Source of the DNA: Bradyrhizobium sp. STM 3809
GTDB lineage: Bacteria > Pseudomonadota > Alphaproteobacteria > Rhizobiales > Xanthobacteraceae
Assembly (NCBI RefSeq): GCF_000239795.1
Contig: NZ_CAFJ01000748.1
Location: 1-40,950, forward strand
Length of the DNA stretch: 40,950 bases
Reading direction: 5' to 3'
Part shown: positions 13,248-23,860 of the stretch, in pieces
How the letters are laid out: each line of letters opens with the position of its first letter
How positions within the stretch are numbered: position 1 is the stretch's first letter
Notes under the pieces: model-generated
What the model saw: only the letters and a program-made list of their open reading frames with translations
Told to the model about the DNA's origin: nothing
Databases searched by the model: none
Translations under genes and position numbers: made by a program

Positions 13248-13415
13248 CGAACGTGTTGAACCAGCTGGGCCTGTCGGAGCGATACCGCCGGAACCACCGC
13301 ACCCGTGCTCCCCTCGCCTTGCGCCGGCCACCCCGTTCCTCCACACTGTGCGCAGCGATGGCACCCCACCCGGGCAGACCAGCCGCATAAAACATCAGGA
13401 GGAACGAGAGACCCC

Positions 13416-14639
13416 ATGCGACAGGGAATTTTCCGTCTTGCCGGCGCAGCCGCAGTGGCCGCCACCCTCTCCATCACGTCAGTTCAGGCCCAGAAGAAGT
13501 ACGATCCCGGCGCGTCCGACACCGAGATCAAGATCGGCCAGACCGTGCCGTTCTCGGGTCCCGCCTCGGCCTATGCCTCGATCGGCAAGACCCAGGCCGC
13601 CTATTTCAACATGATCAACGAGCAGGGCGGCATCAACGGCCGCAAGATCAAGCTGATCCAATATGACGACGCCTATTCGCCGCCCAAGGCCGTGGAACAG
13701 GTGCGCAAGCTGGTCGAGGACGACGAGGTGCTGCTGACGTTCCAGATCATCGGCACGCCGTCCAACGCAGCCGTCCAGAAATACCTCAACGCCAAGAAGG
13801 TCCCGCAGCTGTTCGCGGCCACCGGCGCGACCAAGTTCACCGATCCGAAGAACTTCCCCTGGACCATGGGGTACAATCCCAACTACTTCACCGAAGGCCG
13901 CATCTACGGCCAGTACATTCTGAAGGAGCACCCCAACGCCAAGATCGGCGTGCTCTATCAGAACGACGACCTCGGCAAGGACTATCTCAACGGCATCAAG
14001 GCCGGCCTCGGCGACAAGGCCTCGATGATCGTGGCCGAAGCCTCCTACGAAGTCTCCGATCCGACGATCGATTCCCAGCTGCTCAAGATCAAGTCGGCCG
14101 GCGCCGACCTGCTGTTCTCGGCGGCGACGCCGAAGCAGGCCGCGCAGGCGATCAAGAAGCTGCACGAGCTCGACTGGCACCCGGTGCACATCGTCGACAT
14201 CAATGCCACGTCGGTGGGCGCCGTGCTGCAGCCGGCAGGACTGGAAGCGTCCAAGGGCGTGATCTCGGTCAATTACGGCAAGGACCCGCTCGATCCGCAG
14301 TGGAAGGACGATCCGGGCATGAAGCGCTATTTCGAGTTCATGGCCAAGTACTATCCGGACGGCGACAAGAACTCGAACTTCAACACCTATGGCTACGGCA
14401 ATGCCGAGCTGCTCGTGACCATCTTGAAGATGTGCGGCGACAATCTCACGCGCGAGAACGTCATGAAGCAGGCGACCTCGCTCAAGGACGTCGTCGGCGA
14501 CCTGTCGCTGCCGGGCATGAAGATCAACACCTCGCCGACCGACTATCGCGTCAACAAGCAGCTGCAGATGATGAAGTTCAACGGCGAACGCTGGGAGCTA
14601 TTCGGCCCGATCCTGGAGGACAAGGGCCCGGCGGGTTAG
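13416..14639 (+). CDS. Branched-chain amino-acid-type ABC transporter substrate-binding protein (paralogue 1)
   Basis: This 407-residue periplasmic binding protein belongs to the Leu/Ile/Val (LivK-like, type I fold) family. Residues 1-25 form a Sec signal peptide ending 'ITSVQA'. The mature protein begins 'QKKYDPGASDTEIKIGQT', followed by 'PFSGPASAYASIGKTQAAY', typical of the bradyrhizobial subgroup. The start ATG 13416 has AGGAGG 13 bases upstream, which is a long spacing. A close paralogue follows 277 bases downstream on the same strand. No livHMGF-type permease or ATPase gene lies nearby, so the partner transporter must be encoded elsewhere. The ligand could be an aliphatic or aromatic acid rather than an amino acid, as this large family is diverse in Bradyrhizobium. 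Confidence 0.92.
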   Translation: MRQGIFRLAGAAAVAATLSITSVQAQKKYDPGASDTEIKIGQTVPFSGPASAYASIGKTQAAYFNMINEQGGINGRKIKLIQYDDAYSPPKAVEQVRKLVEDDEVLLTFQIIGTPSNAAVQKYLNAKKVPQLFAATGATKFTDPKNFPWTMGYNPNYFTEGRIYGQYILKEHPNAKIGVLYQNDDLGKDYLNGIKAGLGDKASMIVAEASYEVSDPTIDSQLLKIKSAGADLLFSAATPKQAAQAIKKLHELDWHPVHIVDINATSVGAVLQPAGLEASKGVISVNYGKDPLDPQWKDDPGMKRYFEFMAKYYPDGDKNSNFNTYGYGNAELLVTILKMCGDNLTRENVMKQATSLKDVVGDLSLPGMKINTSPTDYRVNKQLQMMKFNGERWELFGPILEDKGPAG

Positions 14640-14775: not shown

Positions 14776-14916
14776 GCATTGCGGCACCGATTGCGCCCGT
14801 TCGTCGCTCCAACAAGCGTTGCCTTGTCGACTTGCTTCCTCCACACTCGCGTGCAGCGATGGCGACAAAACAACCAAGAAGAACCATCGACAGACATCAC
14901 CGAAGGGAGGACTCGC

Positions 14917-16167
14917 ATGAGAACGTCACTGTTCGGTCTCGTCGGCTTCAAGGCGTGGGCAATCGCGCTTGCTGCGTCGCTGACCGTCGCGCTGCCTGCA
15001 ACATCCGCCTACGCCCAGAAGAAATACGACACCGGCGCCACCGATACCGAGATCAAGATCGGCCAGACCGTGCCATTCTCGGGCCCGGCTTCCGCCTATG
15101 CCGGCATCGGCAAGACCCAGGCGGCCTATCTGCGCATGATCAACGAGAAGGGCGGCATCAATGGCCGCAAGCTCAATCTGATCCAGTATGACGACGCCTA
15201 CTCGCCGCCCAAGGCGGTGGAGCAGGTGCGCAAGCTGGTCGAAGGCGACGAGGTGCTGTTCACCTTCCAGATCATCGGCACGCCCTCGAACGCCGCCGTG
15301 CAGAAATATCTCAACGGCAAGAAGGTGCCGCAGCTCTTGGCCTCGACCGGCGCGTCGCGCTTCACCGACCCGCAGAATTTCCCGTGGACCATCGCCTACA
15401 ATCCGAACTACCAGTCGGAAGGGCGGATCTACGCGAAGTACATCCTCGCCAACCACCCCAACGCCAAGATCGGCATCCTCTACCAGAACGACGACCTCGG
15501 CCGCGACTACATCGCCGGCCTGCGTAGCGGTCTTGGTGCCAAGGCGGATTCGATGATCGTCTCGGAGGCGTCCTACGAACTGTCCGACCCGACGGTCGAT
15601 TCGCAGATCGTGAAGCTGAAATCCTCCGGCGCCGACCTGCTCTACAACGCCTCGACGCCGAAATTCGCCGCGCAGGCAATCAAGAAGCTCGCCGACCTCG
15701 CCTGGAAGCCGGTGCACATCCTCGACATCAACGCCAGCCCGGTGTCGGCGACCTTGAAGCCGGCCGGCCTCGACATCTCCAAGGACATCATCAGCACCAA
15801 CTACGGCAAGGACCCGGCCGATCCGCAGTGGAAGGACGATCCGGGCGTGAAGGCCTATTTCGAGTTCATGGACAAGTATTATCCGGAAGGCGACAAGCTC
15901 AACACGGTCAACACCTACGGCTACTCGACCGCGGAACTGCTGGTGCAGATCCTGCGCCAGTGCGGCGACGATTTGACGCGAGAAAACGTGATGCGGCAAG
16001 CGGCCAACATCAAGGGCTTCGTGCCGAGCCTTGCTTTGCCCGGCCTCTCCATCAACACCTCGCCGACCGACTTCCGCATCAACAAGCAGATGCAGATGAT
16101 GCGCTTCAACGGCGAGCGCTGGGAACTGTTCGGCCCGATCATCGAGGACACGGGAGCGGCGGGGTGA
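14917..16167 (+). CDS. Branched-chain amino-acid-type ABC transporter substrate-binding protein (paralogue 2)
   Basis: This 416-residue periplasmic binding protein is the same family and subgroup as the gene at 13416, and by eye most aligned residues are identical. It has a longer signal peptide (to about residue 34, ending 'ATSAYA') and then 'QKKYDTGATDTEIKIGQT'. Differences cluster at surface positions and around 'LYNASTPKFAAQAIKKLADL', and could alter ligand choice. ATG 14917 is preceded by GGGAGG at seven bases. The pair looks like a tandem duplication. Its 3' neighbour is a palindrome and then convergent clpP. No permease or ATPase genes accompany it. Confidence 0.92.
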   Translation: MRTSLFGLVGFKAWAIALAASLTVALPATSAYAQKKYDTGATDTEIKIGQTVPFSGPASAYAGIGKTQAAYLRMINEKGGINGRKLNLIQYDDAYSPPKAVEQVRKLVEGDEVLFTFQIIGTPSNAAVQKYLNGKKVPQLLASTGASRFTDPQNFPWTIAYNPNYQSEGRIYAKYILANHPNAKIGILYQNDDLGRDYIAGLRSGLGAKADSMIVSEASYELSDPTVDSQIVKLKSSGADLLYNASTPKFAAQAIKKLADLAWKPVHILDINASPVSATLKPAGLDISKDIISTNYGKDPADPQWKDDPGVKAYFEFMDKYYPEGDKLNTVNTYGYSTAELLVQILRQCGDDLTRENVMRQAANIKGFVPSLALPGLSINTSPTDFRINKQMQMMRFNGERWELFGPIIEDTGAAG

Positions 16168-16335: not shown

Positions 16336-16953
16336 TCACTCGCTGCCGACGCTGCCCAGATCCCGCTGCTTCACCACCCGGTCGATCAGCCCCCAGTCCT
16401 GCGCCTCGTCCGCCGTCATGAAGTGATCGCGATCGAGCGTGCGCTCGACGTCCTCGTAGCTGCGGCCGCAATGTTCGGCATAGAGCCGTATCACCCGCCG
16501 CTTGGTCTGCTCCATCTCCCTGGCATGGATCAGAATATCTGACGCCTGGCCCTGAAAGCCGCCGAGCGGCTGATGGACGTGGAGGCTGGCATTGGGCAGC
16601 GCCGTCCGCTCGCCGGGCTCGCCGGCCATCAGCAGGAACGAGCCCATCGATCGCGCCGTTCCCATGCACAGCGTGTGCACCGGCGCCTTGACGAACTGCA
16701 TCGTGTCGTACATCGCGAGCCCGCTGGTGATCACGCCGCCGGGCGAGTTGATGTAGAGATGGATCGGCCGCTTCGGGTTCTCCGCCTCGAGAAACAAGAG
16801 CTGCGCGCAGACCAGCGCGGACACGGTGTCGTTGACCTCGCCGTTGAGGAACACGATCCGCTCGCGCAGCAGCCGCGAATAGATGTCGAAGGAGCGTTCT
16901 CCCCGGCTGGACTGCTCGATGACCATGGGGACGAGTTGCATCGTGTCGCGCAT
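16336..16953 (-). CDS. clpP: ATP-dependent Clp protease proteolytic subunit, ClpP paralogue
   Basis: ClpP forms the barrel-shaped serine protease core that works with ClpA or ClpX unfoldases in the cytoplasm. This 205-residue protein keeps the full catalytic triad: S102 in 'GTARSMGSF', H127 in 'LHVHQPLGG' and D176 in 'LDRDHFM'. The handle and '[11 protein letters not shown]' regions are conserved. An arginine (R101) precedes the catalytic serine, where most ClpP proteins have Ala or Cys. ATG 16953 is preceded by GGGAG. No tig, clpX or lon gene is adjacent, unlike the main clpP of alphaproteobacteria, so this is probably an accessory copy. It starts 41 bases after the SRPBCC gene stop on the same strand and is likely part of the arsR transcript. 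Confidence 0.92.
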
Positions 16954-16994
16954 GCGCGAGCTCCCGTTCAGTGAGTTGGCGATGGAGTGAAGCG

Positions 16995-17354
16995 TCAGAC
17001 CGCGCGCATCAGGCCGCGCGCGTTGCTGTTCGCCGCCGGCGGCAACCGTAGCAGCAGCATCGTCGCGGGCAGTCCGTGGATGATCCGGAGCCGCGTGCCA
17101 CCGTCGTCCCTGGGCATGACCTGGAACGTCACGATGCTTTCGAGGAAAGGCGGCTCGTCGTCGCGCATGCGGTAGCGGACCTCTTCGCCTGGGGTCGAGG
17201 AGATCGGCGCGGCGTCGGCGAGGTCGCCCGCAGGCAGCCAATTGTCGCGCAGCGCCGGGATGCTCAGGGCGCGCCAGACCTTCTCCGGCGACGCATCGAG
17301 GTCGTAGTCGAGCACCAGTTCCTCGCCCTGCTGATCCGCCATTTGATCGGTCAT
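16995..17354 (-). CDS. SRPBCC / AHSA1-like (START-fold) protein
   Basis: This 119-residue protein has the hydrophobic-pocket fold of the Aha1/CalC-like group. Signs are '[19 protein letters not shown]' near the N-terminus, '[22 protein letters not shown]' in the middle, and a C-terminal helix. Such proteins are very often encoded next to an ArsR regulator, as here. The start ATG 17354 overlaps the arsR stop by four bases (ATGA), so translation is coupled. ClpP follows after 41 bases. The C-terminal helix is short and ends 'NARGLMRAV', so the protein is somewhat smaller than usual for the family. Its ligand and function are unknown. Confidence 0.82.
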
Positions 17355-18015: not shown

Positions 18016-18441
18016 TCACTCCGGCACCTCGCCAAAGTTCTTCCCCACCGGCAACACCGCGTGGCGGATCAGGCGCGAATCCTCCACCGCCGCCTGGCGG
18101 TGCTTCACGGCCTCGCGATAGACGGGATCACGGATCATCTCGACGAAGGCGTGCACGCTCGGATACTCCGCGATGAAGCAGTGGTCCCAGCGCTCCTCCT
18201 GTGGGCCGATCAGCATCAGCTCGAAGCGGCCCTGCCAGACGATGCGGCCGCCGAGGCGTTCGAACACCGGGCCGCTCTCGCGGCCATAGGCGGCATAGGC
18301 TTCCGCGCCGCTGACCTTGGGGCCGTCGGGATAGGCCGCTTCCTTGCGCAGCCGCACCAGGTTCAGCATGTGGATCGGACCCGGCCGGTCATTGTCGCGG
18401 AACTGCGCGAACACCTCCTTGGTGGGATCGATATAGCCCAT
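18016..18441 (-). CDS. DUF1330 family protein
   Basis: This 141-residue soluble protein has a dimeric alpha-beta barrel (ferredoxin-like) fold typical of DUF1330. Recognisable parts are 'GPIHMLNLVRLRKEA', 'EAYAAYGRESGPVFERLGGRIVW' read in segments, and 'EYPSVHAFVEMIRDPVYREAV'. The function of the family is not established. ATG 18441 is preceded by GAGGAAG at good distance. It is divergent from the PBP1A gene, with 147 bases between their starts. The YTAA array in that gap could act on either gene. Confidence 0.85.
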   Translation of the reverse strand: MGYIDPTKEVFAQFRDNDRPGPIHMLNLVRLRKEAAYPDGPKVSGAEAYAAYGRESGPVFERLGGRIVWQGRFELMLIGPQEERWDHCFIAEYPSVHAFVEMIRDPVYREAVKHRQAAVEDSRLIRHAVLPVGKNFGEVPE

Positions 18442-18507
18442 CGGCTTCCTCGCTTCTCGTTGTTGACCTTGGCTTAACCATAACGCGGCGTTGACGGCGC
18501 GGAACTC

Positions 18508-18544
18508 CTAATCGCGCGTTAAGCTTTTCCTAACTGCCCCTTAA
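18508..18544 (+). promoter_or_regulatory. Four YTAA half-sites at 11-bp spacing, CtrA-box-like
   Basis: CTAA at 18508, TTAA at 18519, CTAA at 18530 and TTAA at 18541 are each separated by exactly seven bases. This gives three overlapping copies of the YTAA-N7-YTAA arrangement. The known CtrA binding site of alphaproteobacteria is TTAA-N7-TTAA, so each overlapping pair has one mismatch. The array ends 44 bases before the PBP1A ATG and lies between two divergent genes. CtrA control is inferred from the match only. Confidence 0.55.
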
Positions 18545-18588
18545 ACTCCACTCATTACCGTGGTCGGACGGCAGGGCTCGGGTTGCGT

Positions 18589-20814
18589 ATGGCGCGGGGA
18601 CGGAAACAGGGCGGCGGCGGACGCAAGGAGCCGCGATTCGGCCTTGCGGCGGCGATGGCCGACCTGCGCCTCGATCCCAAGGACCGCATTCCGGCCGGCG
18701 AGGACGCGCCGAAGAAATCAACCAAGAAGAAGCCGGTCGAGCCGGACGACGAGGACGATGTGCCGGCGCGCGAGCCCAAGGCCAACCAGCCGAAACCCAC
18801 CCCACCAAAAGCCAAGCCTGCCCGAGCCAAGTCGCGCTGGGGGATGTCGATCGGCCGCCTCGCCTATTGGGCTGTCGTCTGCGGCCTGTGGGGCGTGATC
18901 GCGCTGGTCGGCGTCGTGATCTGGGCCGGCGCGCATCTGCCGCCGATCCAGTCGCTGGAGATCCCGAAGCGCCCTCCGACCATCGAGATCGTCGGCTATG
19001 ACGGCAGCATGCTGGCACAGCGCGGCGAGATGGCCGGCGCCAATGTCGCGCTGAAGGATCTGCCGCCCTATCTGCCGAAGGCGTTCATCGCCATCGAGGA
19101 CCGCCGCTTCTATCAGCATTTCGGCATCGATCCCGTTGGCATCGCGCGTGCACTGGTCGCCAACATCCTGCATCGCGGCGTGTCACAGGGCGGCTCGACC
19201 CTGACGCAGCAGCTCGCCAAGAACCTGTTCCTGACCCAGGAGCGCACGCTCGCCCGCAAGCTGCAGGAGGCGGAGCTGGCGCTGTGGCTGGAGCGCAAAT
19301 ATTCCAAGCGCGAGATCCTCGAACTGTATCTCAACCGCGTCTATTTCGGCTCCGGCGCGTACGGCGTCGAGGCAGCGGCGCAGCGCTATTTCGGCAAGTC
19401 GGCGCGGCAGGTCACGGTCGCCGAGGCCGCGATGCTCGCCGGCCTCGTCAAATCGCCGTCGCGGCTGGCGCCGAACCGCAATCCGGAAGGCGCGGCCAAG
19501 CGTGCGCAGACCGTGCTCGCGGCGATGGCCGACGCCAAGTTCATCACCGACGCCCAGGCGCAGGCCCAGATCGCGCACCCCAGCGTGGCGGTGAAGCCGG
19601 CCGGCGCCGGCACCGTCAACTACGTCGCCGACTGGATCGGCGAGGTGCTCGACGATCTCGTCGGCCAGGTCGAGGACTCGATCGTGGTCGAGACCACGAT
19701 CGATCCGAAGCTGCAGAGCGTGGCGGAGGCCGCCGTGATCGACGAGCTCGCGGCCAAGAGCGTGAAGTTCAATGTCAGCCAGGGCGCGCTGGTGGCGATG
19801 ACGCCGGACGGTGCCGTGCGCGCCATGGTCGGCGGCCGCAACTATGCCGACAGCCAGTTCAACCGCGCGGTCACCGCCAAGCGCCAGCCCGGCTCGGCGT
19901 TCAAGCCGTTCGTCTATCTCACGGCAATCGAGCAGGGGCTGACGCCGGAGACGGTCCGCCAGGACGCGCCGCTCGATCTGAAGGGCTGGCGGCCGGAGAA
20001 CTACACCAAGGAGTATTTCGGCCCGGTCACGCTGACCCAGGCGCTGGCGATGTCACTCAACACGGTCGCCGTGCGCGTCGGCCTCGAGGTCGGCCCTAAG
20101 AACGTCGTGCGCACCGCGCATCGCCTCGGCATCGCCTCCAAGCTCGATCCCAACCCGTCGATCGCGCTGGGAACCTCGGAAGTATCGATGATCGAGCTGG
20201 TCGGCGCCTACGCGCCGTTCTCCAATGGCGGCCTCGCCGTGTCGCCGCATGTGGTGACGCGGATCAAGACGCTCGACGGCAAGCTGCTCTACATGCGCCA
20301 GGCCGAGCAGCCGGCGCAGGTGATCGAGCCGCGCAACGTCGCGATGATGAACCAGATGATGCAGGAGACGCTGATCTCGGGCACCGCCAAGAAGGCCGAG
20401 ATCCCCGGCTGGGTCGCCGCCGGCAAGACCGGCACCAGCCAGGATTTCCGCGACGCCTGGTTCATCGGCTACACCTCCCATCTCGTCACCGGCGTCTGGC
20501 TCGGCAATGACGACAACTCGCCGACCCGGAAGGCCACCGGCGGCGGCCTGCCGGTCGAGGTCTGGACCCGCTTCATGCGCGCGGCGCATCAGGGCGTGCC
20601 GGTCGCGGCGCTGCCGAACGCGCAGGGAGCGGGGCTGGTGCCGACGCTGGCGCAGATCGCCTCGCAGATTTCCGCGCCGACGGCCCCTGCCCCCAATGCA
20701 GCCTATTCCGCGCGCTCGGCGGCGCCGAGTCCGGGCCGCGGCAATACGCGGCCGGAGCCGGCCGCCGGGCTCGACGGCTGGCTGGTGGACCGCCTGTTCG
20801 GCGGCCAGCGCTGA
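18589..20814 (+). CDS. mrcA: Bifunctional penicillin-binding protein 1A (transglycosylase/transpeptidase)
   Basis: This class A PBP polymerises and cross-links peptidoglycan in the periplasm. The 741-residue protein begins with a basic, Lys/Pro-rich cytoplasmic tail of about 80 residues, followed by one membrane helix near residues 88-110. The GT51 transglycosylase domain has catalytic E170 in 'EDRRFYQHFG' and 'GGSTLTQQLAKNLF'. The transpeptidase domain has the SxxK nucleophile S436-K439 ('GSAFKPF'), SxN at S489 ('MSLNTVA') and KTGT at 613-616. A Pro/Ala-rich C-terminus follows. ATG 18589 is used; TTG two codons upstream is possible. Divergent from the DUF1330 gene, its promoter region carries the YTAA array. 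Some alphaproteobacterial relatives are annotated PBP1c-like, but the domain set fits 1A. Confidence 0.93.
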   Translation: MARGRKQGGGGRKEPRFGLAAAMADLRLDPKDRIPAGEDAPKKSTKKKPVEPDDEDDVPAREPKANQPKPTPPKAKPARAKSRWGMSIGRLAYWAVVCGLWGVIALVGVVIWAGAHLPPIQSLEIPKRPPTIEIVGYDGSMLAQRGEMAGANVALKDLPPYLPKAFIAIEDRRFYQHFGIDPVGIARALVANILHRGVSQGGSTLTQQLAKNLFLTQERTLARKLQEAELALWLERKYSKREILELYLNRVYFGSGAYGVEAAAQRYFGKSARQVTVAEAAMLAGLVKSPSRLAPNRNPEGAAKRAQTVLAAMADAKFITDAQAQAQIAHPSVAVKPAGAGTVNYVADWIGEVLDDLVGQVEDSIVVETTIDPKLQSVAEAAVIDELAAKSVKFNVSQGALVAMTPDGAVRAMVGGRNYADSQFNRAVTAKRQPGSAFKPFVYLTAIEQGLTPETVRQDAPLDLKGWRPENYTKEYFGPVTLTQALAMSLNTVAVRVGLEVGPKNVVRTAHRLGIASKLDPNPSIALGTSEVSMIELVGAYAPFSNGGLAVSPHVVTRIKTLDGKLLYMRQAEQPAQVIEPRNVAMMNQMMQETLISGTAKKAEIPGWVAAGKTGTSQDFRDAWFIGYTSHLVTGVWLGNDDNSPTRKATGGGLPVEVWTRFMRAAHQGVPVAALPNAQGAGLVPTLAQIASQISAPTAPAPNAAYSARSAAPSPGRGNTRPEPAAGLDGWLVDRLFGGQR

Positions 20815-21089: not shown

Positions 21090-23729
21090 TCAGCCCGCCG
21101 CCGCAGCCGGTCGCGGCGTCGTCCCGGCGGCAGGCGTCCCCGCCGCCTGCGCCAGCGCACGGCCGACCTGACGCAGCATCAGGCTCGCGCGGTACGCGCT
21201 GTAATCCAGCAGCCAGCGGCTGAAGGCGCCGGCGGCCATCGGACGCGCGAACAGGAAGCCCTGCATCGCATCGCAGCCGAGCTCGGCGAGCAGCCTGCGC
21301 TGCGGCTCGGTCTCGACACCCTCGGCGACCACCTTGACGTCGAGGCTCTGGCCGACGCGGACCACCGCGGTCACGATCGCCCGCGTGCCTTGGTCGTTCT
21401 CGATATTGCGCATGAAGCCACGATCGATCTTGAGCTCGTGGATCGGCAGCTGCGCCAGCCGGCTGAGGCTGGAATAGCCGGTGCCGAAATCGTCCAGCGA
21501 CAGGCCGACGCCCATGTTGCGCAGCTCGCTCATGGTGGCGATCACGGTGGCGCGCTCGTTGAGGATCACGCCCTCGGTGATCTCCAGCATCAGCATCTTC
21601 GCCGGCAGATCGTTGGCGGCCAGGATCTGCGCCACCACAGCGGCCAGGTTGACGTTCTGGAAGTTGATCGGCGACAGGTTCACCGAGATGCAGGGGATGT
21701 CGAGGCCGGCGCGGCGCCACGACGCCATCTGCTGGCAGGCCGTCTTGATCGACCACACGCCGATCTGCTCGATCAGGCCGCATTCCTCGGCGAGCGGGAT
21801 GAACTTGGCGGGCGACACGTCGCCGAGCACCGGATCGTGCCAGCGCGCCAGCGCCTCGACGCCGTGAATGGCGCCGTTCCTGGTGCAGATCTGGGGCTGG
21901 TAGTGCAGCGTCAGCGCCTCGCTGGCGATCGCCTCGCGCAGCGCGGTCGAGTGCATCAGCCGCTCCTCGGCGAGCTTGTCGATGTCGGCGCTGAAGAAGC
22001 GATAGGTGGCGCGGCCGGCGCGCTTGGCCTTGTACATCGCCCCGTCCGCCTGCTTAATCAGGGTCTCGATGTCGGTGGCATTGTCCGGATAGAGGCTGAG
22101 CCCCATGCTCGCGGACATCGGCACCTGGCGCTTGCCGATCGTCAGCGGCATCGCCAGCGCCGCGGTGATCCGTGCCGCGGCCAGCGAGGCCTCGAGCGCA
22201 TCGCGGTTCTGCAGCACGATCACGAATTCGTCGCCGCCGAGCCGGCCGAGCATATCGCCCGGACGGATCTGCGCCCGCAGGCGGTTGGCGAAGGCGACCA
22301 GGAACTCGTCGCCGGCGGCGTGGCCCAGCGTATCGTTGACGTCCTTGAAATTGTCGGCGTCCAGGAAGGCGACCGCGAGATGGCTGCCTTCCGGGCAGGC
22401 CTTGATCGCCTCGGCGATCATCGACGGAATGCGGGCGCGGTTCGGCAACCCCGTCAGCATGTCGTGATAGGCGACCTGCGAGATCGTGGAGCGGACCTCC
22501 TGGCGCTCGATCGCGAGCGAGCCGAGCTGAACGCACGCCGACACGATCTGTTCATGCCAGGGGCTGGGCCCGCGGCATTCGCGGAAGTAGAACGCGAAGG
22601 TGCCGATGACGCGGCCGTCCTTGCCCTTGATCGGGGTCGACCAGCAGGCACGCAGGCCAGCCTCAAGCGGTCCGGACTTGTAAGGCTGCCAGCGCGGATC
22701 GGTGTCGAGGTCGCGTGCCAGCACCGGCTCGCACAGATAGGCCGCGGTTCCGCAGGAGCCGACGTCGGGCCCGATCGCGACGCCGTCGAGGCCGGCGGAA
22801 TAGGCCGGCGGCAGGCTGGGTCCGCCGAGCGGATGAATCTTGCCGTCCGAGTCGACGTGCAGGATCGAGCAGACCACGTCCGGCGCCAGTTCTTCGACCC
22901 GGCGGCACAACTGATCGGCGATGGTCGTGATCGACACGTCGGACGCCAGCGAGGACATGATCAGCTGCTGCAGCGAGCGCAACTGCTTGGTCTCTCTGAT
23001 ATCGCTGAGCAGGCCGACCAGGTATTTGACCTTGCCCTGGCGGTTGCGGTGCGCCTTGACATGCGCCGTGGTCCAGATCTCGCGGCCGGCCTTGTCATAG
23101 ATCAGCAGATCTTCCTCGACCCCCTGGGCGTCGATGATGCACTGCTTCAACCGCTCGACCATCGCGGGGTCGGTGCACGGACCGACCAGCAGCTTTTCCA
23201 CCTGCTGTCCCAGCGCCTCCTCGGCGCTGTAGCCGTAGATGCTGGTGAAGGCGGCGTTGGTGTAGAGGATGTTCAGGTTGTGATCCGCCACCACGACGCC
23301 GCGGTTGCTGCGGTCGGCGACCGAGGTCATCAGCGCGTTGCGCTCGCGCAGCTGGACCTCGGAGGTGACGTCGCGCATCAGCAGCAGCGAGCGCACCGGC
23401 GTCAGCCCGTCGGGGAGTGGATACAGATTGACCTGAACGCGGCTGCGGGGGCCGCCGGCATGACGGAGCGTGAACTCGCAGGCGAACTCCGCCTGGTCGC
23501 TCGCCGCGTCGCCCATCGGCGCCGGCAGCACGCCGGCAGGCAGCCCGAGATCGACGAGATCCGCACCGATCAGGCCGGCGAGATCACGCTGCAACAATGT
23601 TGCAGCGGCCTGGTTGGCGTGATGGACACGGCCATCGCCGTCGAGAAAGAGGAACGCCTCGGTGGCGCGATCGATCGCGGCCGAGAGCAGTGGCGCAGAC
23701 GCGGCCGGTGGGAACTCGCTTGCAAGCAT
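21090..23729 (-). CDS. PAS-PAS-GAF-GGDEF-EAL cyclic-di-GMP signalling protein
   Basis: The 879-residue cytoplasmic protein combines sensory domains with both cyclic-di-GMP enzyme domains. Two PAS domains lie at about 15-125 and 135-250 ('VVVADHNLNILYTNAAFTSIYG' is in the second, read in parts). A GAF domain lies at about 270-420. The diguanylate cyclase domain has an intact GGDEF at 498-502, and the phosphodiesterase domain has EAL at 625-627 plus 'LEITE', 'DDFGTGYSSL', 'KIDRGF' and 'AEGVET'. Both active sites look complete. The layout resembles bacterial DGC/PDE-A and Dos-type proteins, though no heme ligand can be assigned. ATG 23729 is chosen over GTG 23753; neither has a good Shine-Dalgarno. 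No partner gene is adjacent. Confidence 0.93.
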   Translation of the reverse strand: MLASEFPPAASAPLLSAAIDRATEAFLFLDGDGRVHHANQAAATLLQRDLAGLIGADLVDLGLPAGVLPAPMGDAASDQAEFACEFTLRHAGGPRSRVQVNLYPLPDGLTPVRSLLLMRDVTSEVQLRERNALMTSVADRSNRGVVVADHNLNILYTNAAFTSIYGYSAEEALGQQVEKLLVGPCTDPAMVERLKQCIIDAQGVEEDLLIYDKAGREIWTTAHVKAHRNRQGKVKYLVGLLSDIRETKQLRSLQQLIMSSLASDVSITTIADQLCRRVEELAPDVVCSILHVDSDGKIHPLGGPSLPPAYSAGLDGVAIGPDVGSCGTAAYLCEPVLARDLDTDPRWQPYKSGPLEAGLRACWSTPIKGKDGRVIGTFAFYFRECRGPSPWHEQIVSACVQLGSLAIERQEVRSTISQVAYHDMLTGLPNRARIPSMIAEAIKACPEGSHLAVAFLDADNFKDVNDTLGHAAGDEFLVAFANRLRAQIRPGDMLGRLGGDEFVIVLQNRDALEASLAAARITAALAMPLTIGKRQVPMSASMGLSLYPDNATDIETLIKQADGAMYKAKRAGRATYRFFSADIDKLAEERLMHSTALREAIASEALTLHYQPQICTRNGAIHGVEALARWHDPVLGDVSPAKFIPLAEECGLIEQIGVWSIKTACQQMASWRRAGLDIPCISVNLSPINFQNVNLAAVVAQILAANDLPAKMLMLEITEGVILNERATVIATMSELRNMGVGLSLDDFGTGYSSLSRLAQLPIHELKIDRGFMRNIENDQGTRAIVTAVVRVGQSLDVKVVAEGVETEPQRRLLAELGCDAMQGFLFARPMAAGAFSRWLLDYSAYRASLMLRQVGRALAQAAGTPAAGTTPRPAAAAG

Positions 23730-23860
23730 CGTTCGATTCGAAGCGCGCTGCACGTTTCGAGAGCAACGTTCAGCGCTTGGGTTGCAGCGAACGGCCCGGC
23801 TGCTGCTGGGACGTCACCTTGGAGGGTTGATCGAACCCGAATTTGGCGAGGTCGTCGTTA

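Follow-up and report, generated by a model that had tools for sequence, protein, structure and literature searches.

Four TTAA-like half-sites in a single 11-bp register stand upstream of a class A penicillin-binding protein (PBP) gene in Bradyrhizobium sp. STM 3809. Judging from the sequence, we consider it highly probable that this array is a CtrA-activated promoter of a peptidoglycan synthase gene, with CtrA as the putative binder and activation as its predicted effect. Control by CtrA had been proposed in a sequence-only reading of the window (the whole stretch of 40,950 nucleotides that was analysed), and it is well supported by the seven-base (N7) spacing of the half-sites, their placement over the -35 region, conservation across the order, the close match of the encoded CtrA to that of Caulobacter and a genome-wide preference for the N7 spacing.

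Half-site array and promoter layout

Four YTAA half-sites at exact 11-bp steps had been described in the sequence-only reading, and we find every one of them where it was placed: CTAA at 18508-18511, TTAA at 18519-18522, CTAA at 18530-18533 and TTAA at 18541-18544, with seven bases between each neighbouring pair. Two TTAA-like half-sites with 7 bp between them make a full CtrA site, and the array holds this arrangement twice, each time as CTAA-N7-TTAA. It sits in a 147-bp intergenic region (18442-18588) between a divergent DUF1330 gene and the class A PBP gene. The features are listed in Table 1.

Table 1. Positions in the window of the array, the predicted promoter elements and the flanking genes.
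Feature	Position	Strand	Remarks
Divergent DUF1330 gene	18016-18441	-	PF07045; bounds the 147-bp intergenic region on the far side
TTAACCAT, atypical CtrA motif	18474-18481	+	About 33 bp ahead of the DUF1330 gene
Distal CtrA-like box, half-sites 1-2, CTAA-N7-TTAA	18508-18522	+	Spans roughly -60 to -46, counted from the predicted start
Proximal CtrA-like box, half-sites 3-4, CTAA-N7-TTAA	18530-18544	+	Roughly -38 to -24, over the -35 region
-10 element TACCGT (TAnnnT)	18556-18561	+	T, A and final T each in 55/55 distinct arrays
Predicted transcription start	18567-18569	+	Expected 6-8 nt past the -10 element
Class A PBP gene (transglycosylase and transpeptidase), PBP1b1/1b2 type by elimination	18589-20814	+	ATG at 18589; PF00912, PF00905

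The proximal pair begins 26 bp upstream of a TAnnnT -10 element and therefore covers the -35 region, the usual spot for an activating CtrA site. Given this -10 element, transcription would be expected to start near 18568, which would put half-site 3 at -38. By this analysis, the position matches both the published placement of CtrA activation sites and the Hyphomonas ChIP-seq consensus: according to excerpts of the Caulobacter study, predivisional activation is marked by a full CtrA motif whose 5' base lies close to -35 (PMC4287350), and those of the Hyphomonas study give TTAA-N7-TTAAC as the CtrA consensus (PMC7200025). We found no consensus sigma-70 promoter at the PBP promoter, which fits an activator-dependent promoter. 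Conservation reaches beyond the half-sites, with the conserved block extending to the -10 element.

How unusual is the array? In the window, the three-site YTAA-N7 pattern has two overlapping matches, both of which are the four-site array, and it is absent from each of 100 dinucleotide-preserving shuffles. Across the whole 7.31 Mb genome (803 contigs) there are three matches, the two overlapping ones in the array and an isolated one, compared with two for a reversed control pattern, so that three-site arrays by themselves are not clearly above control level. No second four-site array was found in these 803 contigs. If half-sites are assumed to be independent and to occur at the YTAA density of the window, 5e-7 four-site arrays would be expected genome-wide, a figure that is too low for AT-richer promoters, as the intergenic stretch has 57% GC and the window 66%. 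The outcomes that had been put forward as refuting the reading did not come about, although triples stay near their control in the genome-wide count. We dropped the three-site counts as sole proof, and conservation is stronger evidence than rarity. The only further three-site array of the genome lies on another contig (C632:4678-4703) and reads TTAACGGATGGTTAAATCGACGCTAA.

Conservation among close relatives

For comparison, we took the best 80 of 526 confirmed relatives of the PBP gene, a choice that biases these 80 loci to close kin. They come from named genomes, mostly of Bradyrhizobium, and also of Afipia, Tardiphaga, Rhodopseudomonas, Nitrobacter and others. The block stands about 60-120 bp upstream of the gene start in these relatives, and 70 of the 80 have at least one YTAA-N7-YTAA pair in the upstream stretch searched. 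Alignment across relatives had been named as a test, with loss of conservation as the outcome that would refute the reading; instead, 73/80 loci keep the proximal box together with its -10 element, scored as NTAA-N7-YTAA with TAnnnT at +26/27. The seven without it are L063, L068, L076, L079, L080, L082 and L083. Six of these belong to Rhodopseudomonas or Nitrobacter, genera in which several loci have a lost or degraded box and fellow members retain it.

All four half-sites are strictly YTAA at only 6/80 loci, because half-site 3 is mostly GTAA. Column counts were made on arrays preselected for at least three NTAA sites (71/81 including the window, 55 of them distinct), which means that the conservation of the half-sites in the 55 is partly by construction. 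CTAA fills half-site 1 in 45, and TTAA fills half-site 2 in 54 and half-site 4 in 55; half-site 3 is GTAA in 41, TTAA in 8 and CTAA in 6. For this reason we discarded "four YTAA" as a description of what is conserved; relatives have NTAA at half-site 3. The -10 columns took no part in this selection, and a TAnnnT separated from half-site 4 by eleven bases has its T, A and T each in 55/55.

A distal YTAA-N7-YTAA pair accompanies the proximal box at 63 of the 73 loci, at a distal-proximal spacing of 11 bp in 60 and of 12 bp in three. Among the ten loci without it, nine retain one lone TTAA, 11 bp ahead of the proximal pair, L077 being the exception. At L008, L014 and L037, a 1-bp insertion lies between the two pairs and the spacing within each pair is still seven, which suggests two dimers rather than one rigid four-site complex.

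Conservation across the order

The order-wide sample consists of the best hits of the 59 top-ranked of 80 other genomes of the order with matches; one upstream stretch (G013) is shortened by a contig end. YTAA-N7-YTAA is present in 30 of these 59 orthologue promoters, and in 32 on the reverse complement. Other spacings (3-6 and 8-15) are found in 0-6 on the same strand and in 0-18 on the reverse complement (18 at spacing 10). When the 59 promoters were resampled 200 times under a first-order Markov model, the N7 pair appeared in 0.57 on average and in 3 at most.

The exact pair with TAnnnT at +26/27 occurs in 29/59 orthologues, compared with 0-1 at ten other offsets; one mismatch raises the count to 38/59 (0-2 at ten other offsets) and two mismatches to 43/59 (2-6 at other offsets). 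One example is TTAACCACCCCTTAAATCGCCGCATTTAGCGT in genome G045. The -35 placement of a CtrA-activated promoter, reckoned from a predicted start, is therefore found at 29/59 loci as well as at the 73/80 above. The 59 orthologues represent 33 families, the 29 positive ones being spread over 19 of these, and 21/59 lack the box and -10 element even when one mismatch is allowed. In the 30 order-wide boxes, one of which (G032) was entered by hand through a GTAA proximal pair, the offset of TAnnnT is +26 for 26 and +27 for the other 4. The box is mostly TTAA-N7-TTAA. At 11 or 22 bp upstream of the pair, every tetramer is found in at most 2/30. We take this to mean that what is widely shared is the proximal box, to which Bradyrhizobium and its near kin have added further half-sites; the distal pair is thus a lineage-limited addition.

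Promoters of a second PBP paralogue served as a control. Among 20 second-rank matches from the order, chosen among the matches listed, none (0/20) has the box and -10 element, exact or with one mismatch, and around the STM 3809 paralogues on contigs C99 and C718 the stretches examined hold no YTAA-N7-YTAA on either strand. Outside the order, we used best hits from 40 of 74 genomes of the class, a sample of uncertain orthology that excludes weak matches, matches near a contig start and some others. The exact box with its -10 element occurs in 1/40. With one mismatch it occurs in 4/40, which is inside the sample's own offset controls (0-5), so that faint boxes outside the order are uninformative. 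As far as sampled, the link to a CtrA box thus appears specific to one PBP paralogue and to the order.

Identity of the synthase gene

The sequence-only reading had called the gene a major PBP1A, and this is not supported. The gene passes the cut-off of TIGR02074, the general PBP1A family, but scores 346 bits against a cut-off of 1263 with the MrcA model NF008643. PBP matches elsewhere in the genome lie on C99, C13, C718 (two pieces in one frame), C171 (short) and C706 (weak). We take a canonical PBP1a locus to be one that adjoins an N-acetylmuramoyl-L-alanine amidase gene and holds a long frame whose two catalytic regions are set apart. This arrangement is found not at the window gene but on C718, where an 876-aa frame with two separate matches adjoins an Amidase_3/AMIN gene, which fits the C718 gene being the canonical PBP1a of the genome. 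We therefore rejected the window gene for that role. With C718 so assigned, comparison with the Agrobacterium set as excerpted from PMC8546619 leaves the window gene and the C99 gene as the PBP1b1/1b2 pair, and by elimination the window gene is probably a secondary class A synthase of PBP1b1 or PBP1b2 type.

In Agrobacterium, according to the same excerpts, deletion of pbp1b1 and pbp1b2 leaves cell length and viability unchanged, and loss of PBP1b2 alters peptidoglycan composition (PMC8546619). Excerpts of a further study report that PBP1b1 and PBP1b2 are synthetically essential in a mutant without the order-specific LD-transpeptidases (PMC11527210).

Divergent gene and neighbours

The intergenic region also holds TTAACCAT, reported as an atypical CtrA motif in excerpts of PMC11527210, which could serve either divergent gene. 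The two nearest relatives (L004 and L005) carry it too, inside the upstream 200 bp, and no other of the 80 loci has TTAACC at this place.

Two adjoining ORFs of the window (13305-14639 and 14779-16167) have very similar products, ABC-transporter substrate-binding proteins by eye, and look like a tandem duplication. A ClpP-type protease subunit gene (16336-17022, minus strand) lies upstream of the PBP locus; ClpP takes part in CtrA turnover in other systems, and its proximity here may be coincidental. The gene of a large PAS-GGDEF-EAL (cyclic-di-GMP) protein (21090-23753, minus strand) is convergent to the PBP gene.

The proposed regulator and other N7 sites in the genome

Both CtrA and its phosphorelay are represented in the genome, by a CtrA 91% identical to that of Caulobacter and by a ChpT-family protein. 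SciP-family (DUF1153) and MucR-family proteins are also encoded. CtrA has many paralogues in this genome, of which the closest is 39% identical. In a genome-wide search for TTAA-Nk-TTAAC with k from 2 to 16, 42 of 100 matches fall at k=7, many of them one site counted on both strands, and the next highest count is 13 at k=6. The total for the reversed control is not lower (128 compared with 100), which leaves the k=7 peak as the sole informative signal.

YTAA-N7-TTAAC has 48 matches; we examined 30 loci, located the site at 25 of these and scanned 16 flanking ORFs for domains. Some N7 boxes stand where a CtrA site would be expected, one between flgB and a fliO-like gene, another between chpT and a gene whose product starts like CheA (by eye) and one before a lytic transglycosylase gene; several others precede genes of no evident cell-cycle role. 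Two loci tried as positive controls were negative: a 3.5-kb stretch at eipA, a reported CtrA target, has no NTAA-N7-NTAA, and the ctrA locus (L084) has no such pair. The last of these, TTAA-N7-TTAAC at site 1501 of L152, is flanked on its other side by an ORF with a GalU-like start (by eye) and possibly marks another cell-wall target of CtrA in this genome.

Proposed mechanism and alternatives

From the layout and its conservation, we infer CtrA binding, activation, cooperativity and timing at the PBP promoter as follows. A CtrA~P dimer on half-sites 3-4 would replace the -35 contact and recruit sigma-70 polymerase to the TACCGT -10 element. In Bradyrhizobium and near kin, a second CtrA dimer would occupy half-sites 1-2, two helical turns upstream, where it would most likely stabilise the first or sharpen threshold and timing. 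Cooperative binding of all four half-sites, as the sequence-only reading had suggested, is plausible, but fewer loci keep the distal pair than the proximal one, and the step from pair to pair differs by 1 bp in 3/63. The outcome would be a pulse of synthase at high CtrA~P, in predivisional or new-born cells.

A variant within CtrA control, and not exclusive of it, has CtrA bound at the array with a distal pair that would act to delay or dampen expression. We regard this as a real possibility, if not the one we would choose. Excerpts of PMC11264516 describe such behaviour at Caulobacter pilA, where the -35 site drives expression and upstream sites reduce and delay it, and a lineage-limited distal pair is what would be expected of a tuning element. 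However, the pairs keep an 11-bp helical register in 60/63 loci, which is more regular than pilA and favours contact between neighbouring dimers. It seems unlikely to us that the array is bound by another OmpR-family response regulator, of CenR, ChvI or PhoB type. Direct repeats about one helical turn apart are common in this family, the genome is rich in CtrA paralogues (nearest 39%), and Rhodobacter CenR governs envelope genes through TGA-N8-TGA according to excerpts of PMC9275681; yet the half-site and spacing here are those of CtrA (TTAA-N7-TTAA), and neither strand of the intergenic region contains the CenR consensus taken from these excerpts.

Half-site 3 could also be read as the -35 element (GTAAC/CTAAC) of an alternative sigma factor promoter, with the TTAA spacing incidental. 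ECF -35 elements typically have an AAC core, and the -10 element, half-site 3 and the C that follows it are among the most conserved columns. This would leave unexplained a half-site 4 that is TTAA in 55/55 distinct arrays (partly selected for) and too near the -10 for a -35 element, and the N7 spacing is also favoured genome-wide, so that we find this reading very improbable. Most improbable of all is chance or an AT-rich promoter composition, possibly with MucR-like binding, despite an intergenic region A+T-richer than the window, an encoded MucR-family protein, three-site arrays near control and, in excerpts of PMC4287350, a CtrA motif in 76% of the Caulobacter cell-cycle promoters under MucR peaks. 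A single spacing and a single -10 distance are kept order-wide while second-paralogue promoters are negative, which argues against chance, and MucR binding could add to CtrA control rather than replace it.

Returning to the CtrA-activated promoter, a broader and more speculative proposal, which we put forward tentatively and would not yet favour, is that an ancient, order-specific connection runs from CtrA to a single class A PBP paralogue, so that in polar-growing Hyphomicrobiales the CtrA~P phase brings a burst of bifunctional peptidoglycan synthesis, and that Bradyrhizobium later doubled the box in helical register to give a cooperative, switch-like promoter. A CtrA-type promoter at one class A PBP paralogue, in 19/33 families and at 0/20 second-paralogue promoters, would offer a direct, testable link between the cell-cycle master regulator and a wall synthase, and so bears on how polar-growing bacteria without the usual elongation machinery time wall synthesis. 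It would also offer a reason to retain PBP1b-type synthases whose deletion gives no growth phenotype in Agrobacterium (excerpts of PMC8546619).

Comparison with known CtrA systems

This kind of CtrA promoter is already known, and in the literature searched we found no report of the PBP target or of a four-half-site array in register. In the S. meliloti CtrA ChIP-seq study, neither "penicillin" nor "peptidoglycan" occurs in the main text, which counts against the reading, and no paper in our search, which covered parts of articles outside their supplements, names this PBP gene as a CtrA target.

The predicted promoter resembles the full-motif promoters of Caulobacter (PMC4287350) and Hyphomonas (PMC7200025), as these appear in excerpts, in its half-site, its N7 spacing, the absence of a sigma-70 consensus and a 5' base that lies some 38 bp upstream of the predicted start. 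It differs from them in having a class A PBP gene as its target and a second box in register with the first. Like Caulobacter pilA and hemE, it would have more than one CtrA site per gene with one at -35, and hemE shows cooperative binding and a TTAA-N7-CTAA site (excerpts of PMC11264516). In that account, the pilA sites are irregularly spaced and the second hemE site lies over the -10, whereas here four half-sites share one 11-bp register upstream of the -10 element (PMC11264516). CtrA or its motif has been linked to wall and envelope genes through Motif 1 in Methylosinus (PMC12403871), in silico for LD-transpeptidases in Agrobacterium (PMC11527210) and by ChIP-seq in Brucella as reviewed in PMC10787603. 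Unlike these accounts, whose excerpted text does not mention this class A PBP gene, ours concerns that gene and compares the box together with its -10 element across the order.
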